A stretch of DNA of 64,000 bases from Fusobacterium necrogenes (GTDB lineage: Bacteria; Fusobacteriota; Fusobacteriia; Fusobacteriales; Fusobacteriaceae): the NCBI RefSeq assembly GCF_900450765.1, contig NZ_UGGU01000003.1, positions 620,001-684,000 of the forward strand, written 5' to 3'. The notes beneath the pieces were generated by a model, which did no database searches, was not told where the DNA came from, and saw nothing but the letters and a program-made list of their open reading frames with translations. A program made the translations under genes and the position numbers. Below are positions 651 to 15,751 of the stretch, one piece after another. The first letter of the stretch is position 1. Every line of letters begins with the position of its first letter.

Positions 651-696
651 AAAATAAATAAGAGAAAACATCATAGATACTTAAATGGGGTGGGTT

Positions 697-3600
697 ATGG
701 CAAAAAAGAGTGAGTTTAATGAAGCAACAAGGGTACAAATGCCTGCTTTAGTTCATTTAACTAGAATAGGTTATGAATATATAGGAAAGATTTCAGAAGT
801 TAGGACTGATATAGATTATCAGCCAGATACTAACATATTAATAGATGAATTTAAAAAACAATTTGAAAAATTAAATCCTGAGCATAAAGATAAATTTGAT
901 GATACTTTAAAAACTATAGTTCAAGAGTTAGATAATGATGACATAGGAAAGAGTTTTTATAAAAGATTAGTTTCAGTTTCTCCTATTAAATTAATAGACT
1001 TTGAGAATATCCAAAATAATAGTTTTTGTTGTACAGCAGAGTTTACTTGTAAGAATGGAGAAGAGGAGTTTAGACCAGATATAACTTTGTTTGTAAATGG
1101 ACTTCCTTTGGTATTTGTAGAGGTAAAAAAACCAAATAATGATGGTGGAATTATTGCTGAAAGTAATAGAATGAATGAGAAAAGATTTCCTAATAAAAAA
1201 TTTAGAAGATTCATAAATATAACTCAACTTATGATTTTTTCTAATAACATGGAATATGATGCTATGGGAGGAATAGTTCCAATACAGGGAGCTTTTTACT
1301 GTACAGCTTCAAAGAAAAAAGCTTTTTTTAACTGTTTTAGAGAAGATACAAAGGGAAATGAAGAGATACCAGAGTTTTTACAAAGTTTTCCATATAAGGA
1401 GATAGACAGGGATATTGAGAGAAAAATCCTAACAGATTTTAATAATCAAGTATTACACTTAGCTCCTGAATATCTAACTAATCTTGATGTAAATACACCT
1501 ACTAATAGAATATTGACTTCTATGTGTAGTCCTGAAAGATTATTATATTTATTAAAATATGGTATAGCTTATGTAAATTTTGAAAAAGAAGTTGATGGTA
1601 AGATAGAATCTATTGAAGAAAAGCATATAATGAGATATCAACAGCTATTTGCTTCTCTGGCACTAAGAAAAAAATTAGAAGCTGGGATTAAGTCAGGAAT
1701 AATATGGCATACTCAAGGAAGTGGAAAAACAGCTTTATCTTATCATTTAACAAATATACTTAAAGATTATTATTCAAGCAAAAATCAAGTAGCAAAATTT
1801 TATTTTATAGTGGATAGGTTAGATTTGTTAGAACAATCAAGTCAAGAGTTTGAAGCTAGGGGATTGAGTGTAAAAACAGCAAATACAAGAGCTGAACTTA
1901 TGCAACAGTTTAGAGAAAATAAATCTTTAGAGGGGTCATCTGGACAAAATGAGATAACAGTAGTAAATATCCAAAGATTTGAAGAGGATAGAGAAAAGGT
2001 AGAGCTACCACCATACGCTACAAATTTACAAAGAGTTTTTATCATAGATGAAGCACACAGAGGATATAATCCCAAAGGTTCATTCTTAGCTAACCTATTA
2101 GAAGCAGATAAAAATGCTGTAAAAATAGCTCTTACAGGAACACCACTTTTAAAAGAGGAAAGAGCTTCTTGGAAAGTATTTGGAGATTATATCCACACAT
2201 ATTATTATGATAAATCAATTCAAGATGGATATACTTTAAAGATAATAAGAGAGGATATAGAAACTTCGTATAGAGAGAGATTAGCTGAGATTTATGATAA
2301 ATTGGATATCTTAGTTCAAAAGAAAGATATTAAAAAGAGCCAAATTATAGAGCATGATAACTATGTAAAAGAGTTACTTAGATATATAATAAAGGATTTA
2401 AATAAGTTTAGAACACTACATGGAGATAATACTCTTGGGGGTATGATTATCTGTGAAACAAGTGAGCAAGCTAGAAAATTATATGCTTATTTTGATGAGA
2501 TACAAGCAGAGTTAAATGAAGAATCATCTAAAAAGAGTAAGTTAAAAGCTGGATTAATTTTACATGATTCAGATGATAAAGAAACAAGAAAAAATATAGT
2601 CAAAGATTTTAAAAAGAATATGACAATAGATATTTTAATTGTATTCAATATGTTACTTACTGGATTTGATGCTCCTAGACTAAAGAGATTATATTTTGGT
2701 AGAAAGCTAAAAGACCATAACTTACTTCAAGCAATAACAAGAGTAAATAGACCATACAAAGATAATAGATATGGTTATGTTATAGACTTTGCAGATATAA
2801 AGAGAAATTTTGAAGAAACAAATGAAGCTTATTTAAAAGAGCTGAATAGATTTAATGAGGTAGAGATTGAGGGGGGATTACCTAATATCTTTTCTCATGT
2901 ATTAGAGGATAAAGAAACTTTAATCAATAAGGTAAAAGAAGCAAGACAAATTCTATTTGACTATACTACTGATAATTTAGAAGAGTTTAGTAAGGAAATC
3001 TCTGAAATAGAGGATAAAGAAGTACTTTTAAATATAAAAAGAGTTTTAACAGAAGCAAGAGATTGTTTTAATATAGTTAGAACTTTTGGAGATGATGAAC
3101 TAAAAGAGGTATTTAAAAAAATAGAGATTTCAAGATTACCTCAAATGCTATCTGAACTTCAAAGACATATTACATTGATTAATCAAAAAGAGGCTTTCAA
3201 TGGAAATGAAGAAACTAAGATGTTGATTAATGAAGCTATGGAAGAGATAACTTTTTCTTTTAAAAAGATATCTGAGGAAGAGTTGAAAATAATAGCTGGT
3301 GGAGTAGATTTAAATGAGAAGTGGAAGAGAGCAATTAGTAAATTTGTAAGTAATATAGATAAAGATGATCCAGAGTATATAACATTACAAGAAGCATTTA
3401 TGGAAAAGTTCAAGGAAAAAGGTTTTGTTATAGATACTATGGAAGAGTTTGAAAGAAAGTCTAAAGAGATAGAAGAGGTAATAAAAAAACTAGATGAGTT
3501 AAATAGAAAGAATAGAGCCTTATTAAATAAATATAAAGGGGATAAAAAATTTGTAAGAGTTCATAAAAGAATTCGTGAAGAGAATAATAGGATTGAAAAG

Positions 3601-3921
3601 GAAAATAAGAAAAGACCTGTTATAATCTCTACATATGATGATGAAATCTTTAAATTCCTTAAAAGTTTAAAAGAGAAAATAGATACAAAAATATATGATA
3701 GAGCAAGTATTTTAAAAAATGATGCTTATTTTGGAAAAGCTGTAATGGCTGACCTTATGAATAATTTTAGAGAGCATGAAGGAAATATGTTTGAAATAGC
3801 AGACCCTAGTGCAACGAAAGAAAATTATAAAATGTATGGGGATGATTCTGACCGTATTTTTATAAGAGATAGAATTGTAAAAGAGTATTTAAGCCAATAT
3901 AATGAAACATATAGGTTTTAA
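697..3921 (+). CDS. hsdR: Type I restriction enzyme, motor/nuclease subunit HsdR
   Basis: HsdR translocates DNA with ATP and cuts it at a distance from the methylation site, in a complex with HsdM and HsdS. The chosen ATG at 697 gives 1074 residues and has a G-rich ribosome site (GGGGTGGG) just upstream. An in-frame ATG at 685 has none. The endonuclease core is seen as Asp128 followed by Glu142-Val-Lys144 (a PD-ExK arrangement). The motor has Walker A TQGSGKT (about 339-345), the motif IVDRLDLLEQ, a DEAH box (about 451-454), ALTGTP, and the C-lobe motifs TGFDAPRL and QAITRVNRP. The last 300 residues are helical and charged, as is usual for the HsdM-binding end. All motifs look intact. It is the first gene of an operon with hsdM 20 bp downstream. 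Confidence 0.97.
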   Translation: MAKKSEFNEATRVQMPALVHLTRIGYEYIGKISEVRTDIDYQPDTNILIDEFKKQFEKLNPEHKDKFDDTLKTIVQELDNDDIGKSFYKRLVSVSPIKLIDFENIQNNSFCCTAEFTCKNGEEEFRPDITLFVNGLPLVFVEVKKPNNDGGIIAESNRMNEKRFPNKKFRRFINITQLMIFSNNMEYDAMGGIVPIQGAFYCTASKKKAFFNCFREDTKGNEEIPEFLQSFPYKEIDRDIERKILTDFNNQVLHLAPEYLTNLDVNTPTNRILTSMCSPERLLYLLKYGIAYVNFEKEVDGKIESIEEKHIMRYQQLFASLALRKKLEAGIKSGIIWHTQGSGKTALSYHLTNILKDYYSSKNQVAKFYFIVDRLDLLEQSSQEFEARGLSVKTANTRAELMQQFRENKSLEGSSGQNEITVVNIQRFEEDREKVELPPYATNLQRVFIIDEAHRGYNPKGSFLANLLEADKNAVKIALTGTPLLKEERASWKVFGDYIHTYYYDKSIQDGYTLKIIREDIETSYRERLAEIYDKLDILVQKKDIKKSQIIEHDNYVKELLRYIIKDLNKFRTLHGDNTLGGMIICETSEQARKLYAYFDEIQAELNEESSKKSKLKAGLILHDSDDKETRKNIVKDFKKNMTIDILIVFNMLLTGFDAPRLKRLYFGRKLKDHNLLQAITRVNRPYKDNRYGYVIDFADIKRNFEETNEAYLKELNRFNEVEIEGGLPNIFSHVLEDKETLINKVKEARQILFDYTTDNLEEFSKEISEIEDKEVLLNIKRVLTEARDCFNIVRTFGDDELKEVFKKIEISRLPQMLSELQRHITLINQKEAFNGNEETKMLINEAMEEITFSFKKISEEELKIIAGGVDLNEKWKRAISKFVSNIDKDDPEYITLQEAFMEKFKEKGFVIDTMEEFERKSKEIEEVIKKLDELNRKNRALLNKYKGDKKFVRVHKRIREENNRIEKENKKRPVIISTYDDEIFKFLKSLKEKIDTKIYDRASILKNDAYFGKAVMADLMNNFREHEGNMFEIADPSATKENYKMYGDDSDRIFIRDRIVKEYLSQYNETYRF

Positions 3922-3941
3922 AATAAGAAGGAGAAAAGAGA

Positions 3942-5567
3942 ATGCCGATAAGAGAGAAAACATTAAAATTAATAGATGAGTTAAAATCAACTTGTCAAAC
4001 TTATGGAATGGGAAATAATGGAGATGAATATAAAATAATTACTCAAATATTTATGTATAAATTTTTAAATGATAAGTTTGGTTATGAGTTAAAGAAAATA
4101 TCAGATGAGATAAAAAAAGCTGAGAAATGGGAGATAGCTTATACAGAGATGAGTGAAGGGGAGAGAAGATTTTTACTTGATACTTTAGACCCAGATACTC
4201 TAATTTTAAATCCAGAACACCTTATATCTAATTTATGGAATCAACAAGCAAAAGGGGATTTTGACATAATTTTAGATAATACAATGAAAGATATAGCACT
4301 AAAAAATATAGATATATTTTCAACTCAAACAACTCAAAACACAAAGATACCTATTTTTGAGCCATTAACTGTATGTGTAACTGATGTAAATGAGAGAGCT
4401 AATTTTGCAAGAGCTTTAGTAGATAAATTAGTTGGATTCTCTTTTGAAGAGGCTTTTGAAAAGCACTATGATTTCTTTGCTACAATCTTTGAATATTTAA
4501 TAAAAGATTATAATACATCTGGTGGGGGAACATATGCTGAATACTATACTCCACATGCAATAGCCGCAATAATGGCAAAACTTTTAGTAGGAGATAGTAA
4601 AAATCTACATAATATAGAGGTATATGACCCAAGTGCGGGAACAGGAACATTATTAATGGCTCTATCACATGAGATAGGAGAGAATAAGTGTACTATCTAT
4701 GCTCAAGATATCTCTCAGAAAAGTAATAAGATGTTAAAGCTAAATCTAATTATAAATGGATTAGTTCTATCATTAGACCATGCAATTCAAGGAGATACTT
4801 TAGTAAACCCATATCACAAAAGTGATGATGGAACTAAATTAAGAGAGTTTGACTTTATAGTTTCAAACCCACCATTTAAAATGGATTTCTCAGATACAAG
4901 AGAAAGAATAGCAAGTATGCCAGTTAGATTTTGGGCAGGTGTTCCAAATGTGCCTAAAACTAAAAAGAAGTCAATGGCAATTTATACATGTTTTATTCAA
5001 CATGTTATAAACTCATTAAAAAAAGGTAGTGGAAAGGGAGCTATTGTTGTTCCTACTGGATTTTTAACTGCTAAAAGTGGAGTAGAGAATAAGATATTAA
5101 AGAAAATAGTAGATGAGAAAATTATTTATGGGGCTATCAGTATGCCGTCAAATATATTTGCTAATACTGGTACAAATGTATCTGTGTTATTCTTTGATGA
5201 TTCAAAAAAATCTGATAAAGTAATATTGATAGATGCTTCTAAATTGGGAGAAGAGTATCAAGATGGAAAGAACAAAAAGATAAGACTTAGAGAAGATGAG
5301 ATAACAAAGATTATAGATACATTTAAAAATAAGGTAGCTGAAGATGATTTTTCAGTAGCTGTAACTTATGATGAGATAAAAGAAAAGAACTATTCATTAT
5401 CAGCTGGTCAATATTTTGAAGTAAAGATAGAGTATGTAGAGCTTACTCAAGAAGAGTTTAATGAAAAAATGTCAACTTTTACTTCTAATCTTCAAAAATA
5501 TTTTGAAGAGGGGAAATCTCTTGAAGAGGAAATATTAAAGGGATTAGGAGAGTTGAAGTATGAATAA
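3942..5567 (+). CDS. hsdM: Type I restriction-modification, DNA adenine methyltransferase HsdM
   Basis: HsdM transfers a methyl group from S-adenosylmethionine to adenine and forms the core of both the methylase and the restriction complex. The 541-residue protein has the N-terminal HsdM helical domain (residues 5-150). It also has the cofactor motif DPSAGTG (229-235) and the adenine methylase motif NPPF (309-312), so it should be active. A ribosome site AGAAGGAGA precedes the ATG. The end of hsdM overlaps the start of hsdS by 8 bp, which suggests translational coupling. Length and order are normal for a complete type I system. Confidence 0.97.
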   Translation: MPIREKTLKLIDELKSTCQTYGMGNNGDEYKIITQIFMYKFLNDKFGYELKKISDEIKKAEKWEIAYTEMSEGERRFLLDTLDPDTLILNPEHLISNLWNQQAKGDFDIILDNTMKDIALKNIDIFSTQTTQNTKIPIFEPLTVCVTDVNERANFARALVDKLVGFSFEEAFEKHYDFFATIFEYLIKDYNTSGGGTYAEYYTPHAIAAIMAKLLVGDSKNLHNIEVYDPSAGTGTLLMALSHEIGENKCTIYAQDISQKSNKMLKLNLIINGLVLSLDHAIQGDTLVNPYHKSDDGTKLREFDFIVSNPPFKMDFSDTRERIASMPVRFWAGVPNVPKTKKKSMAIYTCFIQHVINSLKKGSGKGAIVVPTGFLTAKSGVENKILKKIVDEKIIYGAISMPSNIFANTGTNVSVLFFDDSKKSDKVILIDASKLGEEYQDGKNKKIRLREDEITKIIDTFKNKVAEDDFSVAVTYDEIKEKNYSLSAGQYFEVKIEYVELTQEEFNEKMSTFTSNLQKYFEEGKSLEEEILKGLGELKYE

Positions 5568-6792
5568 AATAAAATTATCAAAATTAGCTAATATCAATAT
5601 GGGACAATCTCCTAAATCAGAAAATTATTGTAATAACGAAGGAACACCTTTTTTACAAGGTAATAGAACATTTGGAGAAAAATATCCTGAAATAGATATA
5701 TATACAAAACAAATAACTAAATTGGCAAAAAAAGGAGAAATTTTAATAAGTGTAAGAGCTCCAGTAGGAGATTTGAATATAGCTCCAGTTGATTTATGTA
5801 TAGGGAGAGGATTAAGTGCTATAAATAGTTTTGATAGTAATAATGAATTTCTATATTACTGTTTAAAATATAATGTAAGAAATATTTTAAAACAAAGTTC
5901 GGGTACAACTTATGATTCAATTAATAGAGATATTTTAGAAAATTTTGAGTTAATAACTCCTAAAAAAGAGGATTATATTAAAGTAGGAGAAATTTTATCC
6001 AAGATAGATAATAAAATAGAACTTAATAATAAAATAAATTCTGAATTAGAAGCTATGGCAAAAACTATATATGATTATTGGTTTTTACAGTTTGAGTTTC
6101 CAAATGAAGAGGGAAAACCTTATAAATCATCTGGTGGAAAAATGGTTTGGAATGATGAGTTGAAGAGAGAGATACCAGAGGGCTGGGAAGTTAAGAAAAT
6201 TAAAGATTGTATTACACATATAAAAACTGGATTAAACCCTCGTGATAATTTTAAATTAGGAATGGGAGATATCAAATATATTACAGTTAAAAATATAACT
6301 ACTTCAGGAAGTATTGATTTTTCAAAATGTGATATTATAGATGATAAAGCTAAAGAGATTGTACATAATAGATCTGATATTTCAAAAGGAGATATTTTAT
6401 TTGCTAGTATTGCTCCTTTAGGTAGATGTTATCTTATACAAGAAGAACCAGAAAAATGGGATATAAATGAATCAGTTTTTTCTATTCGTCCAGATTATAA
6501 AATTGTTTCTTCTGAATTTTTATATATGTATTTTATGAGTGAATATTTTATAAAAAAGGCAGAAAGAAGTTCTACAGGAAGTATTTTTAGTGGTATAAGA
6601 ATTAATACAATAGAGAATATGGAAATGTTAGTTCCTAAGCAAGAGGTTATAGAGTTATTTTCTTCAAAAATAAAAAATATTTTATATAAGCATAATATGA
6701 ATTTTTCAGAAAATCAAGAATTAACATCTCTTAGAGATTTCTTATTACCATTACTTATGAATGGACAGGTTGGATTTAAAGAGGAAAAATAA
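5560..6792 (+). CDS. hsdS: Type I restriction-modification, specificity subunit HsdS
   Basis: HsdS recognises the bipartite DNA target for HsdR and HsdM. The 410-residue protein shows the expected two-fold layout. A first target-recognition domain spans about residues 1-140. A conserved helical spacer follows at about 145-205 (ILSKIDNKIELNNKIN, then the AMAKTIYDYWF segment). The second recognition domain is at about 206-370, and a second short helical region ends in LRDFLLPLLMNGQ. Both halves are present, so a bipartite site is expected; its sequence cannot be read from the protein. There is only one hsdS here, with no inverted partial copy or recombinase nearby, so no phase-variable shuffling is visible. 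Confidence 0.95.
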   Translation: MNKIKLSKLANINMGQSPKSENYCNNEGTPFLQGNRTFGEKYPEIDIYTKQITKLAKKGEILISVRAPVGDLNIAPVDLCIGRGLSAINSFDSNNEFLYYCLKYNVRNILKQSSGTTYDSINRDILENFELITPKKEDYIKVGEILSKIDNKIELNNKINSELEAMAKTIYDYWFLQFEFPNEEGKPYKSSGGKMVWNDELKREIPEGWEVKKIKDCITHIKTGLNPRDNFKLGMGDIKYITVKNITTSGSIDFSKCDIIDDKAKEIVHNRSDISKGDILFASIAPLGRCYLIQEEPEKWDINESVFSIRPDYKIVSSEFLYMYFMSEYFIKKAERSSTGSIFSGIRINTIENMEMLVPKQEVIELFSSKIKNILYKHNMNFSENQELTSLRDFLLPLLMNGQVGFKEEK

Positions 6793-6810
6793 TTTATTAG
6801 GAGAATTAAA

Positions 6811-7983
6811 GTGAAAATAGATGAATTAGAAATAGAAAATATAGGTGGAATAAAGAATTTAAATTTAAGTTTTAATGATAAAATGAATGTTATATGTGGA
6901 ACAAATGGAATAGGAAAAACTACTATTCTTGATATAATTGTAGATGCATTTTCATATGGTCAAAAATCAAGATTAAAAAGGAATTCATTAGCTGATTTTG
7001 GAAAATATAAATTGACAATAAATGAAAATGGAATAATAAAAAAATTTGAAGAAAAAATAGAGGAATTTACTCCAATAAGGGAAAAAAGATGTTCATATAC
7101 CTTTGGTGAATTTATAAATAAAATTTTATTTTTTGGAATTGATAGAAGTATTCCTTATATCCAATTAGATTCTATTAAAAGTGATAAAAAAATAGAACCT
7201 TATCAAATAGGAGAAGTAATAAATAGTGGGATAAAAATTACAGATGCAAAAAATTGGTTTATTAATAGATATGCATTTCATGATAAAGAAGATAGTTTAG
7301 ATAGGATTCAAATAGGAAACTTTGAATTTAGTAAAAATATATTTAGTTTATTAGATGATACAATAAAATTTAAAACAGTTAAAGGAAATTCATATGATAT
7401 AATTTTATCAACTCCAAAGGGAGATATTTACTTCGAATACTTATCATCTGGATATAAAAGTTGTATTTATATTCTTTTAGGAATTATAAAAGAAATAGAG
7501 TATAGATATTCTAGTTCTCCAATAAGAGTAATAGATTTTGATGGAGTAATTTTAATTGATGAACTAGATTTACATTTACATCCAATATGGCAAGCTGAAC
7601 TAGTAAGTGTTTTAAAGAAGTGTTTTCCAAAAGCTCAATTTATAGTGACAACTCATAGTCCCAGTTTATTACAATCATTAGAGACTCAAGAGATAATAGC
7701 ATTATATATGGATGAAAAGAATAATATTTTAAAAAAAGAGTTAAATTTAGGAAAATATGGTCTACAAGGATGGACTGTAGAGGAAATATTAAAAGATGTG
7801 ATGGGAATGACAGATACCTCGTCTAAATTTTATTCAAAAATATTAACTGAGTTTGATAGAGCCATGAATGAAGGAAAGCAAGATAAAATATTAGAAAATT
7901 ATAATATTTTAAAAGAAATGTTACATCCTGATAATTTATTAAGGAGATTATTAGACATTCAAGTAGCGGAGTGGAAAGAATAA
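6811..7983 (+). CDS. ptuA: Septu-type ATPase PtuA (SMC/ABC-like AAA ATPase)
   Basis: This 390-residue ABC/SMC-type ATPase starts with GTG at 6811 behind the ribosome site TAGGAGA, only 18 bp after hsdS. Walker A GTNGIGKT lies at about 30-37, the signature LSSGYKS at 211-217, Walker B VILIDE at 246-251 followed by LDLHLHP, and the switch VTTHSP at 279-284. The 85 or so residues after that contain WTVEEILKDVMGM, typical of PtuA and retron-associated ATPases. There is no long coiled coil, so it is shorter than Rad50-like proteins. The next gene encodes an HNH nuclease, the usual PtuA partner in Septu anti-phage systems. No reverse transcriptase lies nearby, so a retron of the Ec78 type is unlikely. 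The ATPase is thought to hold the nuclease in check until infection. Confidence 0.85.
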   Translation: MKIDELEIENIGGIKNLNLSFNDKMNVICGTNGIGKTTILDIIVDAFSYGQKSRLKRNSLADFGKYKLTINENGIIKKFEEKIEEFTPIREKRCSYTFGEFINKILFFGIDRSIPYIQLDSIKSDKKIEPYQIGEVINSGIKITDAKNWFINRYAFHDKEDSLDRIQIGNFEFSKNIFSLLDDTIKFKTVKGNSYDIILSTPKGDIYFEYLSSGYKSCIYILLGIIKEIEYRYSSSPIRVIDFDGVILIDELDLHLHPIWQAELVSVLKKCFPKAQFIVTTHSPSLLQSLETQEIIALYMDEKNNILKKELNLGKYGLQGWTVEEILKDVMGMTDTSSKFYSKILTEFDRAMNEGKQDKILENYNILKEMLHPDNLLRRLLDIQVAEWKE

Positions 7984-8759
7984 TGATAAAAGTAAAAAGA
8001 AATGAAAAACCTCAAGAATTAACTGAAGAAGTAGAGAAGAGTTTAATAGAACAATTTAAAAATAATAAAAAAGATGTTTGGAATAAATCTTTTATTAGGA
8101 GAGCTTTATTGGAACAATGTCATAATAAATGTGTTTATTGTGAAAGTAGAATAGGAGAAGAAAATTCTAAAATGGAAATAGATCATTATCATTGTAAGAG
8201 TAAATATCCAAACGAAGTTGTAAGGTGGGAAAATTTATTTCCAGCATGTAGTCATTGTAATAGTAAGAAATCTGACCACGATACTTATGAAGCCCCAATT
8301 GTTAATCCTTTTGAAGATGAACCAAAGGATTATTTCTATATTAAAGCTTTTAGATATTATTGTAAAAATAAAATTTTTGAATCAAAGGTTAATAGAACAA
8401 TAGAAATTTTAGGATTAAATGATACGAATAAACTAGTAGAATATAGATTTAAATTAGTAAATGGAATTATGGGGCAATTGGAAGATTTATATTTTGACTT
8501 GGAAGAATTAGATACAGAAATTAGAAATGATGTAAGAGTAAAAAATAGAAAATTAAATAAATTAAAGGAAATTTTAAGTACAGGACAAAATACTGAAAAA
8601 TATTCAGCATTTGTTGCAACTGAAATAAAGGAAAATGAATATTATGGTAGAATTAAAAATATTCTTGAAAGTTTTGAAATGTGGGATGAGGAATTAAAAA
8701 AATTAGATGAAGGTTTAGAGGAAGTAAGATTAGCAATTTGTAAAGATAAGAGTAACTAA
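7983..8759 (+). CDS. ptuB: Septu-type HNH endonuclease PtuB
   Basis: This is the effector nuclease of the Septu pair. The chosen ATG at 7983 overlaps the ptuA stop codon (TAATG) and has GGAG 12 bp upstream; an in-frame GTG at 7971 lacks a ribosome site. The 258-residue protein has a zinc-supported HNH fold: Cys50-x2-Cys53, the catalytic IDHYH segment (Asp67, His68, His70), Asn84, and a second zinc knuckle Cys89-x2-Cys92 followed by Asn-Ser. All catalytic and zinc positions are present. The C-terminal 150 residues are helical and charged and probably bind the ATPase. It resembles the family of HNH proteins found with retron and Septu ATPases. Confidence 0.85.
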   Translation: MIKVKRNEKPQELTEEVEKSLIEQFKNNKKDVWNKSFIRRALLEQCHNKCVYCESRIGEENSKMEIDHYHCKSKYPNEVVRWENLFPACSHCNSKKSDHDTYEAPIVNPFEDEPKDYFYIKAFRYYCKNKIFESKVNRTIEILGLNDTNKLVEYRFKLVNGIMGQLEDLYFDLEELDTEIRNDVRVKNRKLNKLKEILSTGQNTEKYSAFVATEIKENEYYGRIKNILESFEMWDEELKKLDEGLEEVRLAICKDKSN

Positions 8760-8828
8760 AAATAAAAACTTATTAAAAAATTTATAAATTAGGAAAATTG
8801 GAGTTACTTTTTAACTAGGGGGAAGGAC

Positions 8829-11800
8829 ATGTCTATATTAGCAGATGTAGAAGCAAAAATATTAAAATTAGAAGGTGGGACTTTTCAAGCATTATGTGAT
8901 ACTTATCTTTTTAGAAAAACTGGATATGGAAATTTTACTGAATATGGAAAGCAAGCTGGAACAATGAAAACAGCAAAAGGAACACCAGATACTTATTTTT
9001 TAAAACCAAATGGGAAATATGCCTTAGTTCAGTATACTACAGCACAAGATAGAATATTTGATAAAATAAAAGAAGATATAGAAAAATGTTTAGATTCTAA
9101 AAAAACAGGATTAGGTATAGAAAATATAGATGAAATTTTATATTGTTATAATTCCTCAAGGTTAAGTGTTGGTGAATATGAAAAATTAAAAGAAATATGT
9201 AGTAGAGAAAATATTAAATTAGAAATATACTCTATAAATACAATAGCCCATGATATTTATTTTGACTATCCAATAATAGCAAAAGAGTATTTAGAAATTT
9301 CTCTAGATACAGGACAAATTATGAAGAGTGAAGATTTTATTGAAGAATATGATTCAAATAAAATGTTAGCTCCTCTTTTTATGAAATTTCTTTTTAGAGA
9401 GTCTGAGAAAAATGAGATAATAGAAGCTATAAATAGTAATGATGTAGTTATTCTATCAGGGCAAGCAGGAGTAGGGAAAACTAAATTGGCTCTTGAAGTA
9501 GTAAATGAATATAAAAAAAAGTATGGTTATGAATTATTTTGTATAAGAAGTAAAAACTTAAAAATTAGTGAAGATATAATAAAATACATACAGAAAGATA
9601 TTAAATATATTCTTTTTATAGATGATGGAAATGAATTAAAGCAACTAAAATTAATATTAGAATTATTAAATAAGAGCAATATAAAAATAGTAATAACAGT
9701 AAGAAATTATGTAAGAGATGAAGTAAATAAAAATGTAAAAAAATACACTAATGAAATTTATGAAAAAGAAATTTTAGGATTTGATGATAAGGAACTTACA
9801 GAATTTTTAAAGGAAAATATGGGAATCTTAAATCCTAAATATATTGAGCAAATATTAAAACTTTCAAAAGGAAATGTTAGAATAGCCTATATGGCAGGAA
9901 AAATTGCCAAAGAGAAGAATACTTTAGAAGTAATCTATAATATTGAAGATATTTATGAGTCTTACTATGGTTTGATGTCTATTAATTTAGATGAAAAATT
10001 ATATATTACAGGAAGTTTAATTTCCATTTTTGGAGCAATAGAAGTTGATAATAAAATTTTAGATGAAATATTGAAAATTTGTAATTTAACTAAGGAAGAA
10101 TTTTTAGAAAATATAAGGAAATTGGAAGAATTTGAATATATTGAGATAAAACATGAGAATGCAGTGAGGGTATTAGACCAATGTTTTGCTAATTATCTTT
10201 TATATAAAGTTTTTATAAAAGAAAAGTTTATAAAGTTAAATTTAATAATAAAGTATGGATTTGAAAATTTTAGAAGATATTTAATAAGAATGTTAAATAT
10301 GTTTACTAATTTATATTCAAGCAAAGAAACTTTAGAATATATAAAGCAAAATGTTAATATTGTTTGGAATGAATATGAAGAAGATAGTAATTATTTATTA
10401 GATGATTTTGTAAAAGTTTTTTATTCTTTAAATGAAACCAAAGCTTTAACTTATATTTATGAAAAAGTAGAAAAAAGTGAAAATAGAGAGTTAGGCACTC
10501 TAGATTTAAAATTTAATAGAGAGGTTAATGATAATATTTTACAATTATTTCCTGATAATAAACAAACTCAGAATTTAGAAGAAGTTTTAGAAGTTTTATT
10601 TGAATATCTTATAAAAAGAAAAGATTTAATAGAAGAAGGATATAAACTTATAGAAAAAAATTATGGAATAACTAGATATTCATTTGATGAGAAATATAAT
10701 ACTCAAATAGCTTTATTTAATATAATTTCCACATATATGGATAAAAAAGAAATCAGAATATTATTTTATAAATTAGCAGAGTATTTTTTAAAGATAAATT
10801 TTTCAGAAGCAGAAGATAATAATGGATATGCAACTTTATATAACATATCTTTATTAAATATACCTAATATGGGAATATACAGAGGAAGGATATGGGAATT
10901 ATTATTAAAAAATATTAATTTTGAAGAAAAAGAGTATGGCTTTTCTGTATTAGAAAGTCTTGGTTATTATTTTAAAGGAAAAGAGCATACAGAAGTTATA
11001 GAAATAGATAAAATCTATATAGTACAACTTTTAGAAATATTAGAAGAGTTTGATAAAATTAGGACAGTTAAAATTTATTTAAATTTAAATGAAAGATATG
11101 GAATTTATAGTAAGAAAATAGATGAAAGCTTAAAAGAAGTTAAAATAAAAATTTTTAGAATATTTTCAAAAGAAAATATTAAATTTGGTGTAGATAATGA
11201 AAAAGAAAAAAAGTTAATAGAAGAGTTTTCCAAAGAAGTATCTTTAGAAGAAGTATTTGATAATATAATTACTTTTTCTATTAGTGAAAAAGGAGAGATT
11301 ATAGCAGGTTTAGGGTATTTTATTGAAAATTTTTATACAGATATAGAAGAGTTAAAGAAGATATTCTTTTATTGTAACGAGTTGAATAGAAGTATAAATT
11401 TTTATCCAAGAAGTCTATTGTTAGAGATTATTAAAAAAGTTGGAATAGATGAGACATATAGAATCATAGAAAATACTAAAACTATAGATAATATTAAGAA
11501 TAACTGGAGATTTATATTTTTTGAACTATTACCTAAAGAAAATATAAATGCTTTTTATCAAGAACAACTATTAAAATTGGTTTTTGATGATAATGAATTT
11601 ATATATTATAGAGATATAAATATCTTAAAAAATTTTTATTTAGTTGATAATAATATATATGTCCATGTTACAAGAGAGTTGTATAATAAAACTGATAAAA
11701 AAATAATTAAAAATTGGCTAAGAATTTTATTTAACCATCATTGTAATTCTCCACAAGAATTACTAAACTTCTATAAAGAAGATTTAGAATTATTAAAGAA

Positions 11801-12434
11801 TATATATTTTCTTTTAGAAGAAGATGATTATGATGGAAGATTTTTTAAAGAATTTTTAGATAAAGATTTTAGTTATTTAATAAGATATTTAGAAATTTTA
11901 AAAGAGAATAGAGATTATCATATTGAAAATAGGAAATTAAAAATATGTTGGAGTAAAGAGAATTATTTAGAAATTTTTGATTTTATATTTGAATATAGTC
12001 TAAAAAATAGAAACTTCTTATATAAATTTCCTTCAATATTTATGAGTAATAATGAAAGGGTAAAAATTTGGATTAAACATACTATAGATAAAAACTGTAT
12101 GGATGAAGATAAAATGGTATTTTTATTTGAAGGTATTTGTCAATTAGATATAGAAACTAAAATAGAATCTCTATTATATTTTATTGATAAAAATAATAAT
12201 GTAGAAAATTTCAAAGCATTAGATATAGAACCTAGAATGAGAGAATGGAGTGGAAGTGAAATTCCACTATTAAAAGAAGATATAGGTGTTTATGAAAAAT
12301 TATTGGAAAATATAAAAAATATAAGAGGAATAAAATTTATTAAACATAGAAACTATCTTGAAGAGAGAATAGAATGGTTGAAAGAAAGAATAAAAGAAAT
12401 AGAAAAAAAAGAGTATATAGATAAATATAATTAA
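8829..12434 (+). CDS. Large endonuclease-like/STAND-like NTPase, probable defence sensor
   Basis: This 1201-residue protein starts at an ATG behind AGGGGGAAGG, 69 bp after ptuB with no clear terminator between. Residues 1-160 look like a divergent restriction-endonuclease fold: Glu15, then GTPDTYF with Asp54, then LVQYTT with Gln68, i.e. a D...QxT pattern in place of the usual D...ExK. Residues 180-390 form a STAND-like P-loop domain with Walker A GQAGVGKT (211-218), Walker B ILFIDD (261-266) and the sensor ITVRNY (289-294). The remaining 800 residues are rich in Leu, Ile, Glu and Lys, predict as helical, and contain no motif I recognise. The layout (nuclease, NTPase switch, long helical sensor) resembles Avs-type and other endonuclease-STAND defence proteins. 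Ligand and target are unknown. The NTPase call is firm and the nuclease call moderate. Confidence 0.75.
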   Translation: MSILADVEAKILKLEGGTFQALCDTYLFRKTGYGNFTEYGKQAGTMKTAKGTPDTYFLKPNGKYALVQYTTAQDRIFDKIKEDIEKCLDSKKTGLGIENIDEILYCYNSSRLSVGEYEKLKEICSRENIKLEIYSINTIAHDIYFDYPIIAKEYLEISLDTGQIMKSEDFIEEYDSNKMLAPLFMKFLFRESEKNEIIEAINSNDVVILSGQAGVGKTKLALEVVNEYKKKYGYELFCIRSKNLKISEDIIKYIQKDIKYILFIDDGNELKQLKLILELLNKSNIKIVITVRNYVRDEVNKNVKKYTNEIYEKEILGFDDKELTEFLKENMGILNPKYIEQILKLSKGNVRIAYMAGKIAKEKNTLEVIYNIEDIYESYYGLMSINLDEKLYITGSLISIFGAIEVDNKILDEILKICNLTKEEFLENIRKLEEFEYIEIKHENAVRVLDQCFANYLLYKVFIKEKFIKLNLIIKYGFENFRRYLIRMLNMFTNLYSSKETLEYIKQNVNIVWNEYEEDSNYLLDDFVKVFYSLNETKALTYIYEKVEKSENRELGTLDLKFNREVNDNILQLFPDNKQTQNLEEVLEVLFEYLIKRKDLIEEGYKLIEKNYGITRYSFDEKYNTQIALFNIISTYMDKKEIRILFYKLAEYFLKINFSEAEDNNGYATLYNISLLNIPNMGIYRGRIWELLLKNINFEEKEYGFSVLESLGYYFKGKEHTEVIEIDKIYIVQLLEILEEFDKIRTVKIYLNLNERYGIYSKKIDESLKEVKIKIFRIFSKENIKFGVDNEKEKKLIEEFSKEVSLEEVFDNIITFSISEKGEIIAGLGYFIENFYTDIEELKKIFFYCNELNRSINFYPRSLLLEIIKKVGIDETYRIIENTKTIDNIKNNWRFIFFELLPKENINAFYQEQLLKLVFDDNEFIYYRDINILKNFYLVDNNIYVHVTRELYNKTDKKIIKNWLRILFNHHCNSPQELLNFYKEDLELLKNIYFLLEEDDYDGRFFKEFLDKDFSYLIRYLEILKENRDYHIENRKLKICWSKENYLEIFDFIFEYSLKNRNFLYKFPSIFMSNNERVKIWIKHTIDKNCMDEDKMVFLFEGICQLDIETKIESLLYFIDKNNNVENFKALDIEPRMREWSGSEIPLLKEDIGVYEKLLENIKNIRGIKFIKHRNYLEERIEWLKERIKEIEKKEYIDKYN

Positions 12435-12512
12435 ATTGTATTAAAATCTTTTATTTATAATATTTCTTTTAAATGATATAATATAATCAAAGACAGATTG
12501 AGAGGTGAGAGT

Positions 12513-14153
12513 ATGTTTGACAAAAAGAAGATAGGTATAGGAATAGATGATTTTAAAAGTGTAATTGAAAAAAATTACTATTTTGTAGATAAATCTAAAC
12601 TAATAGAGGATATTATAGCTGATGGAGCTATTGTAAAGCTTTTTTGTCGTCCTAGAAGATTTGGAAAAACTCTCAATATGTCTATGATGAAATATTTTTT
12701 TGATATAAGAGAGAAAGAGGAGAATAGAAAACTTTTTGATGGGCTATATATAGAAAATTCTCCAATGATAGAGGAACAAGGAAAATATCCAGTTATATTT
12801 CTCACTCTCAAGGAGATTAAAGGAAATAATATTGAGAGCATGTATACTCAAATAAAAACTTTAATTTCAGACTTATTTAATCAGTATGAGTATTTAAGAG
12901 AGAACTTAAATGAGAGAGATATTGAGATTTTTGACAATCTATGGAAGAGAAAAGATGAAGATTATAGCAACTCTCTAAAATTTTTAATAGAGTGCTTAAA
13001 TAACTATTACAAACAAAAAGTAATTCTTTTGATAGATGAGTATGATACACCATTGCTTACTGCCCATGAGTTTGGGTACTACAATGAGGCTCTACAATTT
13101 TTTAAAACTTTCTATGGTGGAGCCTTAAAATCTAATGTTAATTTACAGATGGGAGTACTTACTGGAATAATTAGAGTGGCTCAAGCTGGGATATTTTCAG
13201 ACTTGAATAATTTTTATTCCAATACAATTTTAGAAAATGAATATAGTCAATATTTTGGACTTTTAGAAGCTGAAGTTGAAAATATGCTAAAGTACTACGA
13301 AATAGAGTATAAGATTGATAATGTTAAAGAGTGGTATAATGGATATACTTTTGGGAAAGTACAGGTATATAATCCTTGGAGTATTTTACATTTTGTAAGA
13401 ACAAAGGAATTAAAACCATTTTGGGTAAACACCTCATCTAACTATCTGATTAGAGAGATATTGAGAAAGAGTGGTAGAGATATCTTTGATAGCTTAGAAA
13501 AATTATTTAATCAAGAGGAGATAAGAGTAAGAATAAATCCAAATGTAGAGGTACATAGTAATTTAAATGCTAATGAGATTTTTTCGTTAATGTTGTATTC
13601 TGGTTATTTGACAATAAAAAAAGAGATAGCTGATAATGTTTTTACAATTAGAATACCTAATAAAGAGATTATCTCTTTCTTTCATAATACCTTTATTGAG
13701 ATAATTTTTAAGGATAGTATAGATATTGATGATGTTAAATTTTCTTTAATAGATAGGGATTTAAAAGGATTTGAAAAAGCTTTTAGTAAACTTATAGCTC
13801 AATATCTTAGCTCCTATGATATCAGTTCTCCATACGAGAATCCTTATCATATGTTCTTACTAGGATTTTTCACAAGTATGAGAAGTGATTACATAGTAAA
13901 TTCTAACCAAGAGAGTGGATATGGTAGACCTGATATTGTATTAAGACCTTTGAATAAGACTAAGACAGGATACATTATGGAGTTAAAAGCTGTAAAAAAG
14001 GGAGAAAGCATAGAGAAAAAGTTAGAGGAAGCTAAAAAGCAACTGATAGAAACTTATTATGAAGCAGATTTAGAAAAAAATGGAATAAAGGATATAGTAA
14101 AAATTGCAATAGTTTTTGAAGGAAAAAGAGTAGAGTTTAAATATGTAGACTAA
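12513..14153 (+). CDS. AAA-ATPase-like protein with C-terminal PDDEXK nuclease-like domain
   Basis: This 546-residue protein begins at ATG 12513, which has AGAGGTGAG just upstream; a TTG at 12498 would lie before that site. The N-terminal AAA-ATPase-like domain has the family signature RPRRFGKT (about 46-53) and Walker B VILLIDEYDTPL (about 172-183). The C-terminal 130 residues carry a nuclease-like pattern: YGRPDIVL, then IMELKAVK (Asp, then Glu-x-Lys). The family is often multicopy in anaerobic gut and oral bacteria, and its cellular role is not established. The location at the end of a defence island suggests a defence or mobile role, but that is inference. A deleted second copy lies downstream at 14516-14681. 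Confidence 0.85.
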   Translation: MFDKKKIGIGIDDFKSVIEKNYYFVDKSKLIEDIIADGAIVKLFCRPRRFGKTLNMSMMKYFFDIREKEENRKLFDGLYIENSPMIEEQGKYPVIFLTLKEIKGNNIESMYTQIKTLISDLFNQYEYLRENLNERDIEIFDNLWKRKDEDYSNSLKFLIECLNNYYKQKVILLIDEYDTPLLTAHEFGYYNEALQFFKTFYGGALKSNVNLQMGVLTGIIRVAQAGIFSDLNNFYSNTILENEYSQYFGLLEAEVENMLKYYEIEYKIDNVKEWYNGYTFGKVQVYNPWSILHFVRTKELKPFWVNTSSNYLIREILRKSGRDIFDSLEKLFNQEEIRVRINPNVEVHSNLNANEIFSLMLYSGYLTIKKEIADNVFTIRIPNKEIISFFHNTFIEIIFKDSIDIDDVKFSLIDRDLKGFEKAFSKLIAQYLSSYDISSPYENPYHMFLLGFFTSMRSDYIVNSNQESGYGRPDIVLRPLNKTKTGYIMELKAVKKGESIEKKLEEAKKQLIETYYEADLEKNGIKDIVKIAIVFEGKRVEFKYVD

Positions 14154-14156
14154 AAA

Positions 14157-14228
14157 AATAGATACTAGAATTAAAATTTAATCTCTCAGAGTTAAGTATT
14201 TTTCTAGCTTGAAAAAAATATAGTTGGC
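14157..14228. repeat. 72-bp imperfect direct repeat, copy A
   Basis: The segment immediately after the stop of the AAA/PDDEXK gene recurs at 14674-14745 with about eight substitutions over 72 bp and no gaps. Shared blocks include TCTCAGA, AGTATTTTTCTA and AAAAATATAGTTGGC. It is the 3' flank of the intact gene, and copy B is the 3' flank of the decayed copy, so the two mark a tandem duplication. Confidence 0.85.
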
Positions 14229-14308
14229 CGCAAATTGGCCATAAAAAATTAAAAACCCTATAAAATATATAAAAAAGACCCTCGTAGGATATAAGGTGTT
14301 GATACCCT

Positions 14309-14387
14309 TTCTTAGTGGGCTAGAGATATTATAACAAAAAATTCTTGAAATTTCTAGTTAGTTTTGTTATAATCTAATTACTAAGAA
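14309..14387. repeat. Extended interrupted inverted repeat around the small-RNA promoter
   Basis: A perfect 12-bp inverted repeat, ATTATAACAAAA (14328-14339) and TTTTGTTATAAT (14362-14373), is flanked by further matching arms, TTCTTAGT (14309-14316) and ACTAAGAA (14380-14387). The right arm contains the -10 box of the small-RNA promoter. The left arm gives a mirror-image TATAAT on the minus strand, 17 bp from TAGAAA, so a weaker divergent promoter is possible. Confidence 0.7.
14345..14373 (+). promoter_or_regulatory. Near-consensus sigma-70 promoter
   Basis: TTGAAA at 14345-14350, a 17-bp spacer, then a perfect TATAAT at 14368-14373. No coding frame with a ribosome site follows. The expected start at about A14380 coincides with the first base of the first RNA hairpin. 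Confidence 0.75.
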
Positions 14388-14450
14388 GAATGGAAGACTT
14401 AGTATGTTCATCGCTGGTATAGCTGCAACTATACCAGCCTTTTTCTTTTT
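14380..14450 (+). ncRNA. Candidate small RNA of about 70 nt
   Basis: A short transcription unit is delimited by the promoter at 14345-14373 and a perfect terminator ending at about 14450. The predicted RNA has two hairpins. The first pairs ACTAAG (14380-14385) with CTTAGT (14398-14403) around the 12-nt purine-rich loop AAGAATGGAAGA. A 9-nt linker (ATGTTCATC) follows, then the terminator stem. I do not recognise it as tmRNA, 6S, SRP or a tracrRNA, and no CRISPR repeats are near. It sits between the AAA/PDDEXK gene and its decayed copy, at the edge of a defence island. It may regulate a neighbour, act in trans, or be part of a small mobile element. Existence of the transcript is inferred from promoter and terminator only. 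Confidence 0.6.
14413..14450 (+). terminator. Intrinsic terminator of the small RNA
   Basis: Perfect 10-bp stem GCTGGTATAG (14413-14422) and CTATACCAGC (14429-14438), 6-nt loop, followed by a T-rich tract interrupted by one C. Confidence 0.85.
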
Positions 14451-14515
14451 AGCAAAAGTTTTAGATTAGAGATTATCTACTCTATACAGTAGCAGAGTTA
14501 GAGGAGTAAAAAAAT

Positions 14516-14681
14516 CTTTAATTTCAGACTTATTTAATCAGCATGAGTATTTGAGAGAGAACTTAAATGAGAGAAATATTGAGAAAGAGTGGTAGAGATA
14601 TCTTTGATAGCTTAGAAAGACTTTTATTGAGATAATTTTTAAGGATAGTATAGATTGATGTTAAATTTTCTTTAATAGATA
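14516..14681 (+). pseudogene. Deletion-scarred second copy of the AAA/PDDEXK gene
   Basis: Four collinear pieces match the intact gene at 12513-14153: 14516-14583 to 12859-12926, 14581-14618 to 13463-13500, 14621-14655 to 13690-13724, and about 14654-14681 to 13728-13755. The first junction falls where the intact gene has a 15-bp direct repeat (AGAGAGATATTGAGA) at both ends of the missing part. The last junction, into the 3' flank, falls at the shared AATAGATA. No open frame survives and the 5' third is absent. The remnant ends in copy B of the 72-bp direct repeat, so it is what is left of a tandem duplicate. Confidence 0.85.
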
Positions 14682-14745
14682 GTAGAATTCAAATTTAACC
14701 TCTCAGAATTTAGTATTTTTCTAACTCGTAAAAAATATAGTTGGC
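14674..14745. repeat. 72-bp imperfect direct repeat, copy B
   Basis: Matches copy A at 14157-14228 with about eight substitutions. It directly follows the decayed gene copy, just as copy A follows the intact gene. Confidence 0.85.
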
Positions 14746-14759
14746 TGTAAAAAGTTGGA

Positions 14760-14804
14760 GCTGTTGCAAATTAATGGTTTTCAATCTCATTAATTTGCAA
14801 CAGC
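14760..14804 (-). terminator. Large terminator hairpin of the TRAP operon
   Basis: A perfect 17-bp stem, GCTGTTGCAAATTAATG (14760-14776) and CATTAATTTGCAACAGC (14788-14804), with an 11-nt loop lies 11 bp beyond the stop of the TRAP receptor gene. On the minus strand it is followed by a short T-rich run (CTTTTT); on the plus strand by CCCCTTTTATTATT. It may work in both directions. Confidence 0.75.
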
Positions 14805-14815
14805 CCCTTTTATTA

Positions 14816-15751
14816 TTATTTTATACCTTTTTCAGAGAAATATTTTTCAGCTCCTGGATGCAATTTTATACTCATTCCTTCTAACCCTGTATCTTCTTTA
14901 ATAAATTCTCCAACTTTATGAGCAGTTTTTATTCTATCAGTATTAGCATACATTGATTTTAGCATATTGTATACCATATCTTCAGATAATTTTGAACTTA
15001 CTACTAACATAGATTGAACTGTTAATGTTTGAGCGTCCTCTTTTTGAGTGCTATAAGTACCACCTTTAATTGTATAATCAGTATAGTAAGAGTATTTATT
15101 TTTTAGTTTAGTAGCTAATTCTTTATCAATATTAACAACTTTTACATTTCTTTGAGTAGCTAGATCAACAATTGCTGATGTAGGGACTCCAGCAACTAGA
15201 AAAGCTGCATCTATTTGTCTATCTCTTAGACCAGTTGCTGCTTCAGCAAAAGATAGGTACTGAGGTTTATAGTCTTTTTCTCCTATTCCAGCAGCCTCTA
15301 AAATTTGTACAGCATTACAGTAGACTCCACTTCCAATAGCTCCAATAGCAACTTTTTTACCTTTTAGATCTTCTATTGAATTAATACTACTGTCAGTAGT
15401 GATACATTGGATAGGTTCACTATAAAGAGTAGCCATTCCTCTTATTGTCTCTATCTTTCTATCAAATAGTTCTACACCATTTTCAGCATAAGAAGCAACA
15501 TCATTTTGAATAATAGCAACGTCTATATCACCTTTTTCTAACATATTTACATTAGCAACAGAAGCTCCAGTAGATTCAGCAGTAGCATTTACACCTTTAA
15601 TATTAGAGTTCCATATTTCAGCAAAAGCCCCTCCTAGTGGATAATAAGTTCCAGCAGTTCCTCCAGTACCAATATTTATATAAGTAGTTTGCTCTCCACT
15701 ACAAGCTCCTAATCCAATGGCTAATGTTAATAAAGCTAATACTTTTTTCAT
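14816..15751 (-). CDS. TAXI-family TRAP transporter solute-binding lipoprotein
   Basis: The 311-residue protein captures an organic-acid-type ligand outside the membrane and delivers it to the TRAP permease encoded just upstream. The N-terminus is a lipoprotein signal with lipobox LGAC (Cys17), so it should be lipid-anchored. The mature start INIGTGGTAGTYYPLGG is the hallmark of the TAXI (TRAP-associated extracytoplasmic immunogenic) family, and YSEPIQ and VAIGAIGSG fit the rest of the fold. Length is typical. It is the last gene of a three-gene operon, 15 bp after the permease gene, with the terminator at 14760-14804. The substrate cannot be read from sequence. Confidence 0.92.
   Translation of the reverse strand: MKKVLALLTLAIGLGACSGEQTTYINIGTGGTAGTYYPLGGAFAEIWNSNIKGVNATAESTGASVANVNMLEKGDIDVAIIQNDVASYAENGVELFDRKIETIRGMATLYSEPIQCITTDSSINSIEDLKGKKVAIGAIGSGVYCNAVQILEAAGIGEKDYKPQYLSFAEAATGLRDRQIDAAFLVAGVPTSAIVDLATQRNVKVVNIDKELATKLKNKYSYYTDYTIKGGTYSTQKEDAQTLTVQSMLVVSSKLSEDMVYNMLKSMYANTDRIKTAHKVGEFIKEDTGLEGMSIKLHPGAEKYFSEKGIK

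Follow-up and report, generated by a model that had tools for sequence, protein, structure and literature searches.

The Gene and Its Immediate Surroundings

The window analyzed here, i.e., the whole stretch of DNA examined, comprises 64,000 nucleotides of the Fusobacterium necrogenes genome, and the genes of the window described below lie on its forward strand. The gene under study occupies positions 8829–12434. Its open reading frame is intact (ATG at 8829, stop at 12434, 1201 codons) and is preceded by a strong ribosome-binding site; no comparable frame was found on the opposite strand. The open frame, Pfam matches, AlphaFold modeling with Foldseek searches and full-length homologues describe its 1201-amino acid product as a PD-(D/E)XK-fold, nSTAND3 NTPase and helical repeat protein. 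The G+C content of the gene is 21.3%, compared with 27.5% for the window.

The STAND gene is part of a same-strand run in the order HsdR-HsdM-HsdS-PtuA-PtuB-STAND gene-PDDEXK_9 gene. The genes for HsdR, HsdM and HsdS (type I restriction-modification; 685–6792, identified by Pfam and PADLOC) are neighbors and contribute no part of the protein. They are followed by the neighboring Septu genes for PtuA and PtuB (6811–8759; PADLOC, 1.6e-151 and 5.4e-84, respectively). The STAND gene starts 69 bases after PtuB and ends 63 bases before a neighboring AAA-ATPase_like/PDDEXK_9 gene (12498–14153; Pfam, 9.3e-52 and 1.2e-19), for which the open reading frame list gives a TTG start, an ATG being present at 12513. 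Positions 685–14153 are thus covered by one closely spaced run, in which PtuA and PtuB overlap, and a terminator-like hairpin is located 3′ of the run at 14413–14438.

A Family of Full-Length Homologues

With a four-sequence alignment as the query, 52 loci were retrieved from 84,980 species of bacteria and archaea. The family alignment built from these data contains 46 full-length proteins, including the window protein and members from a Leptospira plasmid and a viral contig; apart from itself, aligned members are 21–32% identical to the window protein. The latter is therefore not an orphan, since dozens of full-length homologues are spread over at least six phyla. Two clades can be seen. The first consists of Bacillota and Fusobacteriota and includes the window protein, whose branch is long; the second contains proteins from Bacteroidota, Planctomycetota, Ignavibacteriota, Neisseriaceae, Bacillaceae and Leptospira. 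A tblastn search of phage records gave no match, and both family members that were fetched with their RefSeq annotation are listed as "hypothetical protein".

Four of the loci (L060, L061, L063 and L064) carry truncated N-terminal remnants of the family gene. In L063, the SpoVA-region context seen in L029 is retained, while other genes stand where the rest would be.

Domain Organization of the Protein

A first-pass annotation, made from the sequence alone, had proposed an endonuclease-like N-terminus, a STAND-like P-loop domain and a layout resembling that of the Avs phage-protein sensors. Structure prediction and profile searches bear out all three proposals, both the nuclease-like fold and the P-loop domain being recovered.

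Residues 1–188 were modeled by AlphaFold with 34 homologues (pLDDT 83). The elements of the model follow the order helix-strand-strand-strand-helix-strand-helix-strand-helix, and a Foldseek search with it retrieved PD-(D/E)XK nucleases and an Avs4 chain from the PDB. The best matches were EcoT38I (8e-4) and Avs4 (2.9e-3, TMq 0.55), with BspD6I (Nt.BspD6I), a nicking enzyme, and FokI as the main hits after them; apart from Avs4, the fold neighbors are therefore mainly restriction or nicking DNA nucleases. As judged from the secondary structure of the model and from Foldseek, residues 1–160 (8829–9308) contain the core alpha-beta-beta-beta-alpha-beta fold of the PD-(D/E)XK superfamily. A search of PDB sequences with a profile of the domain returned nothing credible. 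The N-terminus is thus modeled as a PD-(D/E)XK-fold domain, a predicted effector with an atypical active site that is described in the next section.

The STAND P-loop NTPase occupies residues 185–329 (9381–9815). Pfam nSTAND3 (PF20720) matches residues 195–329 with an E value of 9.5e-10 and 38.8 bits, against a curated cut-off of 27.2, and was found in 31 of 31 family members. The Walker A motif GQAGVGKT was confirmed at residues 211–218, where the first-pass annotation had read it; G211, G214, G216 and K217 are invariant in the family, and T218 is conserved at 0.94. A Walker B-like acidic motif, DDxN, is present at residues 265–268, with D265, D266 and N268 invariant, and is followed by TVRxY at 290–294. 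Residues 330–464 (9816–10220), which contain the motif GNxRxA at 348–353, probably form the part of the STAND module that is helical and resembles a winged helix; the hhalign alignment with PD-Lambda-4_A relatives reaches across this region, and conservation stays high to about residue 480.

The rest of the protein, residues 465–1201 (10221–12431), is a predicted sensor built as a helical-repeat solenoid, according to model secondary structure, Foldseek and a conservation lower than that of the N-terminal half. In the full-length AlphaFold model (31 sequences; pLDDT 80.7, pTM 0.54) almost the whole C-terminal part, starting at about residue 450, is helix, the repeats spanning about 750 residues. 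Among PDB structures, the full model matched Avs4 best (6e-13), then SAMD9, EfAvs5, Avs3, NLRP2 and AVAST5 filaments, and the solenoid also resembles solenoids of the exportin type. The description of this part as a very long helical region without a recognizable sensor thus stands as far as the helices are concerned and needs amendment otherwise, since Foldseek places the modeled solenoid with those of Avs4, Avs5 and SAMD9. The TM-scores of the full model against Avs structures are low (0.11–0.15 for Avs4), as is expected of flexible solenoids; they provide no proof of homology along the sensor, and our claim is therefore one of shared architecture and not of close structural identity. With this qualification, the long C-terminal part is modeled as an Avs/NLR-type helical solenoid. 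Sequence identity dips at about residues 600–900 in most close pairs compared, which, together with the lower conservation of the solenoid, fits a sensor that faces changing pressure.

A Rearranged but Conserved Active Site

Column counts over an alignment of 33 divergent representatives define the active-site signature KTxxGTPD...[E/Q/M]x[T/S/G]T...KxxxDxxxC, which in the window protein includes D54, Q68, T71, K79, D83 and C87 (codons 47–87, 8967–9089). Nine residues, K47, T48, G51, P53, D54, T71, K79, D83 and C87, are invariant. Of the 33 representatives, 30 have E at position 68 and two (L021 and L065) have M, Q occurring in the window protein alone; at position 70, T, S or G is found. A lysine two residues after position 68, where the ExK lysine is expected, is present in none of the 33. 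D54 is thus the expected aspartate of the PD-(D/E)XK site, and the family has no counterpart of the ExK lysine. Invariant D54 notwithstanding, the family thus departs from the canonical D...(D/E/Q)xK residues of the superfamily. The first-pass annotation had read D54 and Q68-x-T70 at the correct places and had taken the latter to stand in place of ExK. The lysine is indeed missing, but Q68 turns out to be particular to this protein, within a motif shared by the whole family in which E predominates and T71 does not vary.

The missing lysine may be substituted by K47, which lies in a poorly modeled loop, or by K79 in the next helix. A single-sequence PD-Lambda-4_A profile alignment pairs Y69 with the catalytic lysine, whereas the spacing points to T70. 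Comparison of the N-domain profile with P0004 alone gave a spurious short match only, which leaves the pairing of ExTT with QxK provisional. A literature search on lysine-substituted PD-(D/E)XK enzymes yielded no usable source.

Since the ExK lysine is absent from all members and the window protein also lacks the glutamate, catalysis is not assured. One can imagine a pseudo-nuclease, i.e., a domain that has kept its fold but is catalytically dead and that, upon oligomerization of the STAND module, binds DNA or RNA or recruits a distinct effector; the replacement of E68 by Q in the window protein and by M in two other members fits such a protein. We nevertheless consider this unlikely. D54, T71, K79, D83, C87 and the KTxxGTPD motif are invariant over the 33 representatives, which is unusual for a dead enzyme, and purifying selection on K47, T48, D54, T71, K79, D83 and C87, seen across such divergent members, points to an active domain. 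In addition, BamHI and BglII are active restriction enzymes with substitutes for the ExK lysine, and no second gene accompanies the family across all phyla.

Alternatively, the rearranged KT...D...T...KxxxDxxxC site could set a different chemistry, such as cleavage of RNA, nucleotides or NAD. The invariant residues do differ from the D...(E/Q)xK set of PD-Lambda-4_A, in which D53, Q76, K78 and E90 are invariant. However, the fold neighbors of the domain are mainly DNA nucleases and nothing positive points to another substrate, which makes this reading quite improbable.

Genomic Neighborhoods of the Family

We sampled the first four neighbors longer than 150 amino acids within 6 kb of the family gene at 33 homologue loci, which gave 124 proteins, and drew 123 control proteins from stretches sampled in two genomes of Fusobacteriota. 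At E ≤ 1e-20, the neighbors matched 251 PADLOC models and the controls seven, counts that are to be read knowing that many models are redundant, that the control comes from two genomes and that the open reading frame calls are mechanical. Family members sit in defense neighborhoods and hotspots. In the window, type I restriction-modification, Septu and PDDEXK_9 genes flank the STAND gene in an island that the sister species lacks; synteny with that species begins at 14808. The island continues leftwards past the window, after guaA, with a DUF4143 ATPase (PDC-S01), a type IV restriction-like helicase with a PLD domain, a methyltransferase and a KAP NTPase. These leftward genes lie at 9540–15589 of locus L080 (G000:C3:605000-622000).

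In eleven loci (L014, L015, L018, L019, L023–L026, L028, L056 and L066), an rRNA/tRNA U5-methyltransferase gene lies immediately upstream of the family gene, a recurring arrangement that likely reflects an insertion hotspot. A RhuM-family gene (cluster C4, Pfam) adjoins the family gene in ten loci (L015–L020, L025, L028, L056 and L060), in most cases on its downstream side.

The organization of the F. necrogenes locus, with same-strand genes separated by short gaps up to the hairpin and only 69 bp before the STAND gene, would also suit a composite system in which the gene and the adjacent type I restriction-modification and Septu genes act as one defense unit, and type I restriction-modification-like genes do occur less than 10 kb from several homologues (L030, L047, L051, L053 and L055). 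Against this, the flanks of the homologue loci contain no PtuA or PtuB match outside the window and few Hsd-like matches, so that neither PtuAB nor HsdRMS is conserved with the gene across loci, and in the eleven methyltransferase-associated loci the gene stands alone. A composite unit therefore appears improbable, and a link to Septu was rejected since PtuAB does not recur near homologues.

Horizontal Transfer

Within Fusobacteriota, the gene is present in two of 98 genomes. Across phyla, copies in Vagococcus lutrae, Streptobacillus notomytis and Streptococcus cristatus (L014, L023 and L024) are 91–92% identical at the protein level. In V. lutrae and S. cristatus the copy has a G+C content of about 29%, compared with 36–43% in the flanks, while the Streptobacillus flanks, at about 25%, are as befits such a genome. 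This pattern makes recent transfer likelier than contamination as the source of the nearly identical copies.

STAND NTPases have non-immune roles as well, and the protein could in principle regulate a cellular process such as stress or transcription, yet horizontal transfer into flanks of different G+C content, patchy distribution, defense-rich neighborhoods and a nuclease-fold effector all argue against a non-immune regulator, which we regard as very improbable.

Proposed Mechanism

Computation assigns the protein a fold of the PD-(D/E)XK type at its N-terminus, an nSTAND3 NTPase whose Walker A motif is intact and a C-terminus of helical repeats; for the family, it shows a wide distribution across phyla, horizontal transfer and placement in defense islands. 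We predict that the gene probably encodes a single-protein NLR/Avs-like abortive-infection sensor-nuclease of a family for which the searched libraries contain no description. A role of the family in phage defense is suggested by analogy and backed by genomic context, and it is likewise by analogy that we infer DNA cleavage by the N-domain and its trigger.

In Avs1–4, nuclease activity kills the infected cell upon sensing of terminase or portal (PMC12931631). The behavior of these proteins suggests corresponding steps in the window protein: binding of a phage protein, ATP-dependent oligomerization and nuclease activation. The C-terminal solenoid would bind a conserved protein of a phage or mobile element. 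Upon binding, and with ATP, the NTPase would oligomerize and gather the N-terminal nuclease-fold domains, which would thereby be switched on. Phage and host DNA would then be degraded, and the infected cell would die before phage release. The nuclease site would be a rearranged one, formed by D54, E68 (Q in the window protein) and either the invariant T71, K79 and D83 or K47, in place of the ExK lysine. That a PD-(D/E)XK-fold effector with a site so remodeled (KTxxGTPD, ExTT and KxxxDxxxC) in an Avs-like immune family uses a chemistry or substrate other than the known Avs DNA cleavage is a tentative suggestion that we doubt.

With these results, the bacterial NLR-like sensors gain a family that is unnamed and widely transferred. 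Its lysine-free yet strictly conserved site offers a clear test of how far a PD-(D/E)XK active site can be rearranged, and its trigger would reveal phage features sensed in anaerobic gut and mouth bacteria.

Comparison with Known Systems

The window protein has the Avs layout, with effector, STAND NTPase and helical sensor in one polypeptide, and matches no named Avs family model. PADLOC models gave no match to it at E ≤ 0.05. NCBIfam, which includes Avs2 (NF041813) and Avs5 (NF041814), gave P-loop noise and no Avs match, and a search of PDB sequences with the single protein returned chance P-loop matches only. The family profile found no Avs3, Avs4 or Avs5 chain in the PDB at E ≤ 1, retrieving P-loop proteins and plant NRC NLRs instead. 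The Avs2 and Avs5 models did not match in 98 Fusobacteriota genomes, the Avs5 model being silent in control genomes too. The early possibility that the protein might be an orthologue of a tested Avs family was thus not borne out, since the libraries used contain no Avs model that fits the protein. As for the family, it is unnamed so far, widely transferred and outside the defense models searched (PADLOC 2.0.0). PADLOC mad8 matches in 26 of 31 members suggested a link to MADS, which was rejected because, where inspected, they cover the P-loop region alone.

The resemblance to Avs4 (AVAST type 4; PDB 8DGF) extends over a nuclease-fold N-domain, a STAND NTPase and a long helical sensor, Avs4 being the best PDB match of the full model and the second best of the N-domain. 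However, there is no sequence match, Avs4 has at least 1534 modeled residues compared with 1201 in the window protein, and the active site of the latter is atypical. Avs5 (SIR2-STAND; PDB 9JAP and 9NC9) shares the helical repeats (Foldseek E down to 4.4e-9) and an nSTAND3 NTPase, a domain that has been assigned to Avs5 as well (PMC12931631), but its effector is a Sir2 NADase and not a nuclease fold. SAMD9 and the animal NLRs (NLRP2, NOD2 and Apaf-1) likewise have a central STAND NTPase followed by helical repeats; they are eukaryotic and carry other effector domains, and the likeness is one of fold only.

PD-Lambda-4_A (PADLOC PDLC03991), which is listed in PADLOC as a phage-defense nuclease-STAND protein, is of similar length, and its NTPase and adjoining parts show profile homology to the window protein. 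With hhalign, one PD-Lambda-4_A sequence aligned to residues 22–471 (probability 96.6, E 6.9e-10) and a profile of nine to residues 126–464 (probability 98.6, E 1.2e-15), the nuclease cores remaining unaligned in the latter comparison. Unlike the window protein, PD-Lambda-4_A has a classical D...QxK site. The PADLOC PD-Lambda-4_A model does not match the window protein either, and it reaches one family member only at E 0.0072; the window protein thus has neither the model match nor the site that characterize PD-Lambda-4. On a Leptospira interrogans plasmid (L004, 6001–13675), a gene of the family has a PD-Lambda-4_A homologue (PADLOC, 2.2e-273) immediately downstream, so that two nuclease-STAND genes lie in tandem. 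The window protein is thus Avs-like by architecture and a member of no Avs type tested, and its closest relatives found, as far as sequence profiles indicate, are those of PD-Lambda-4_A.
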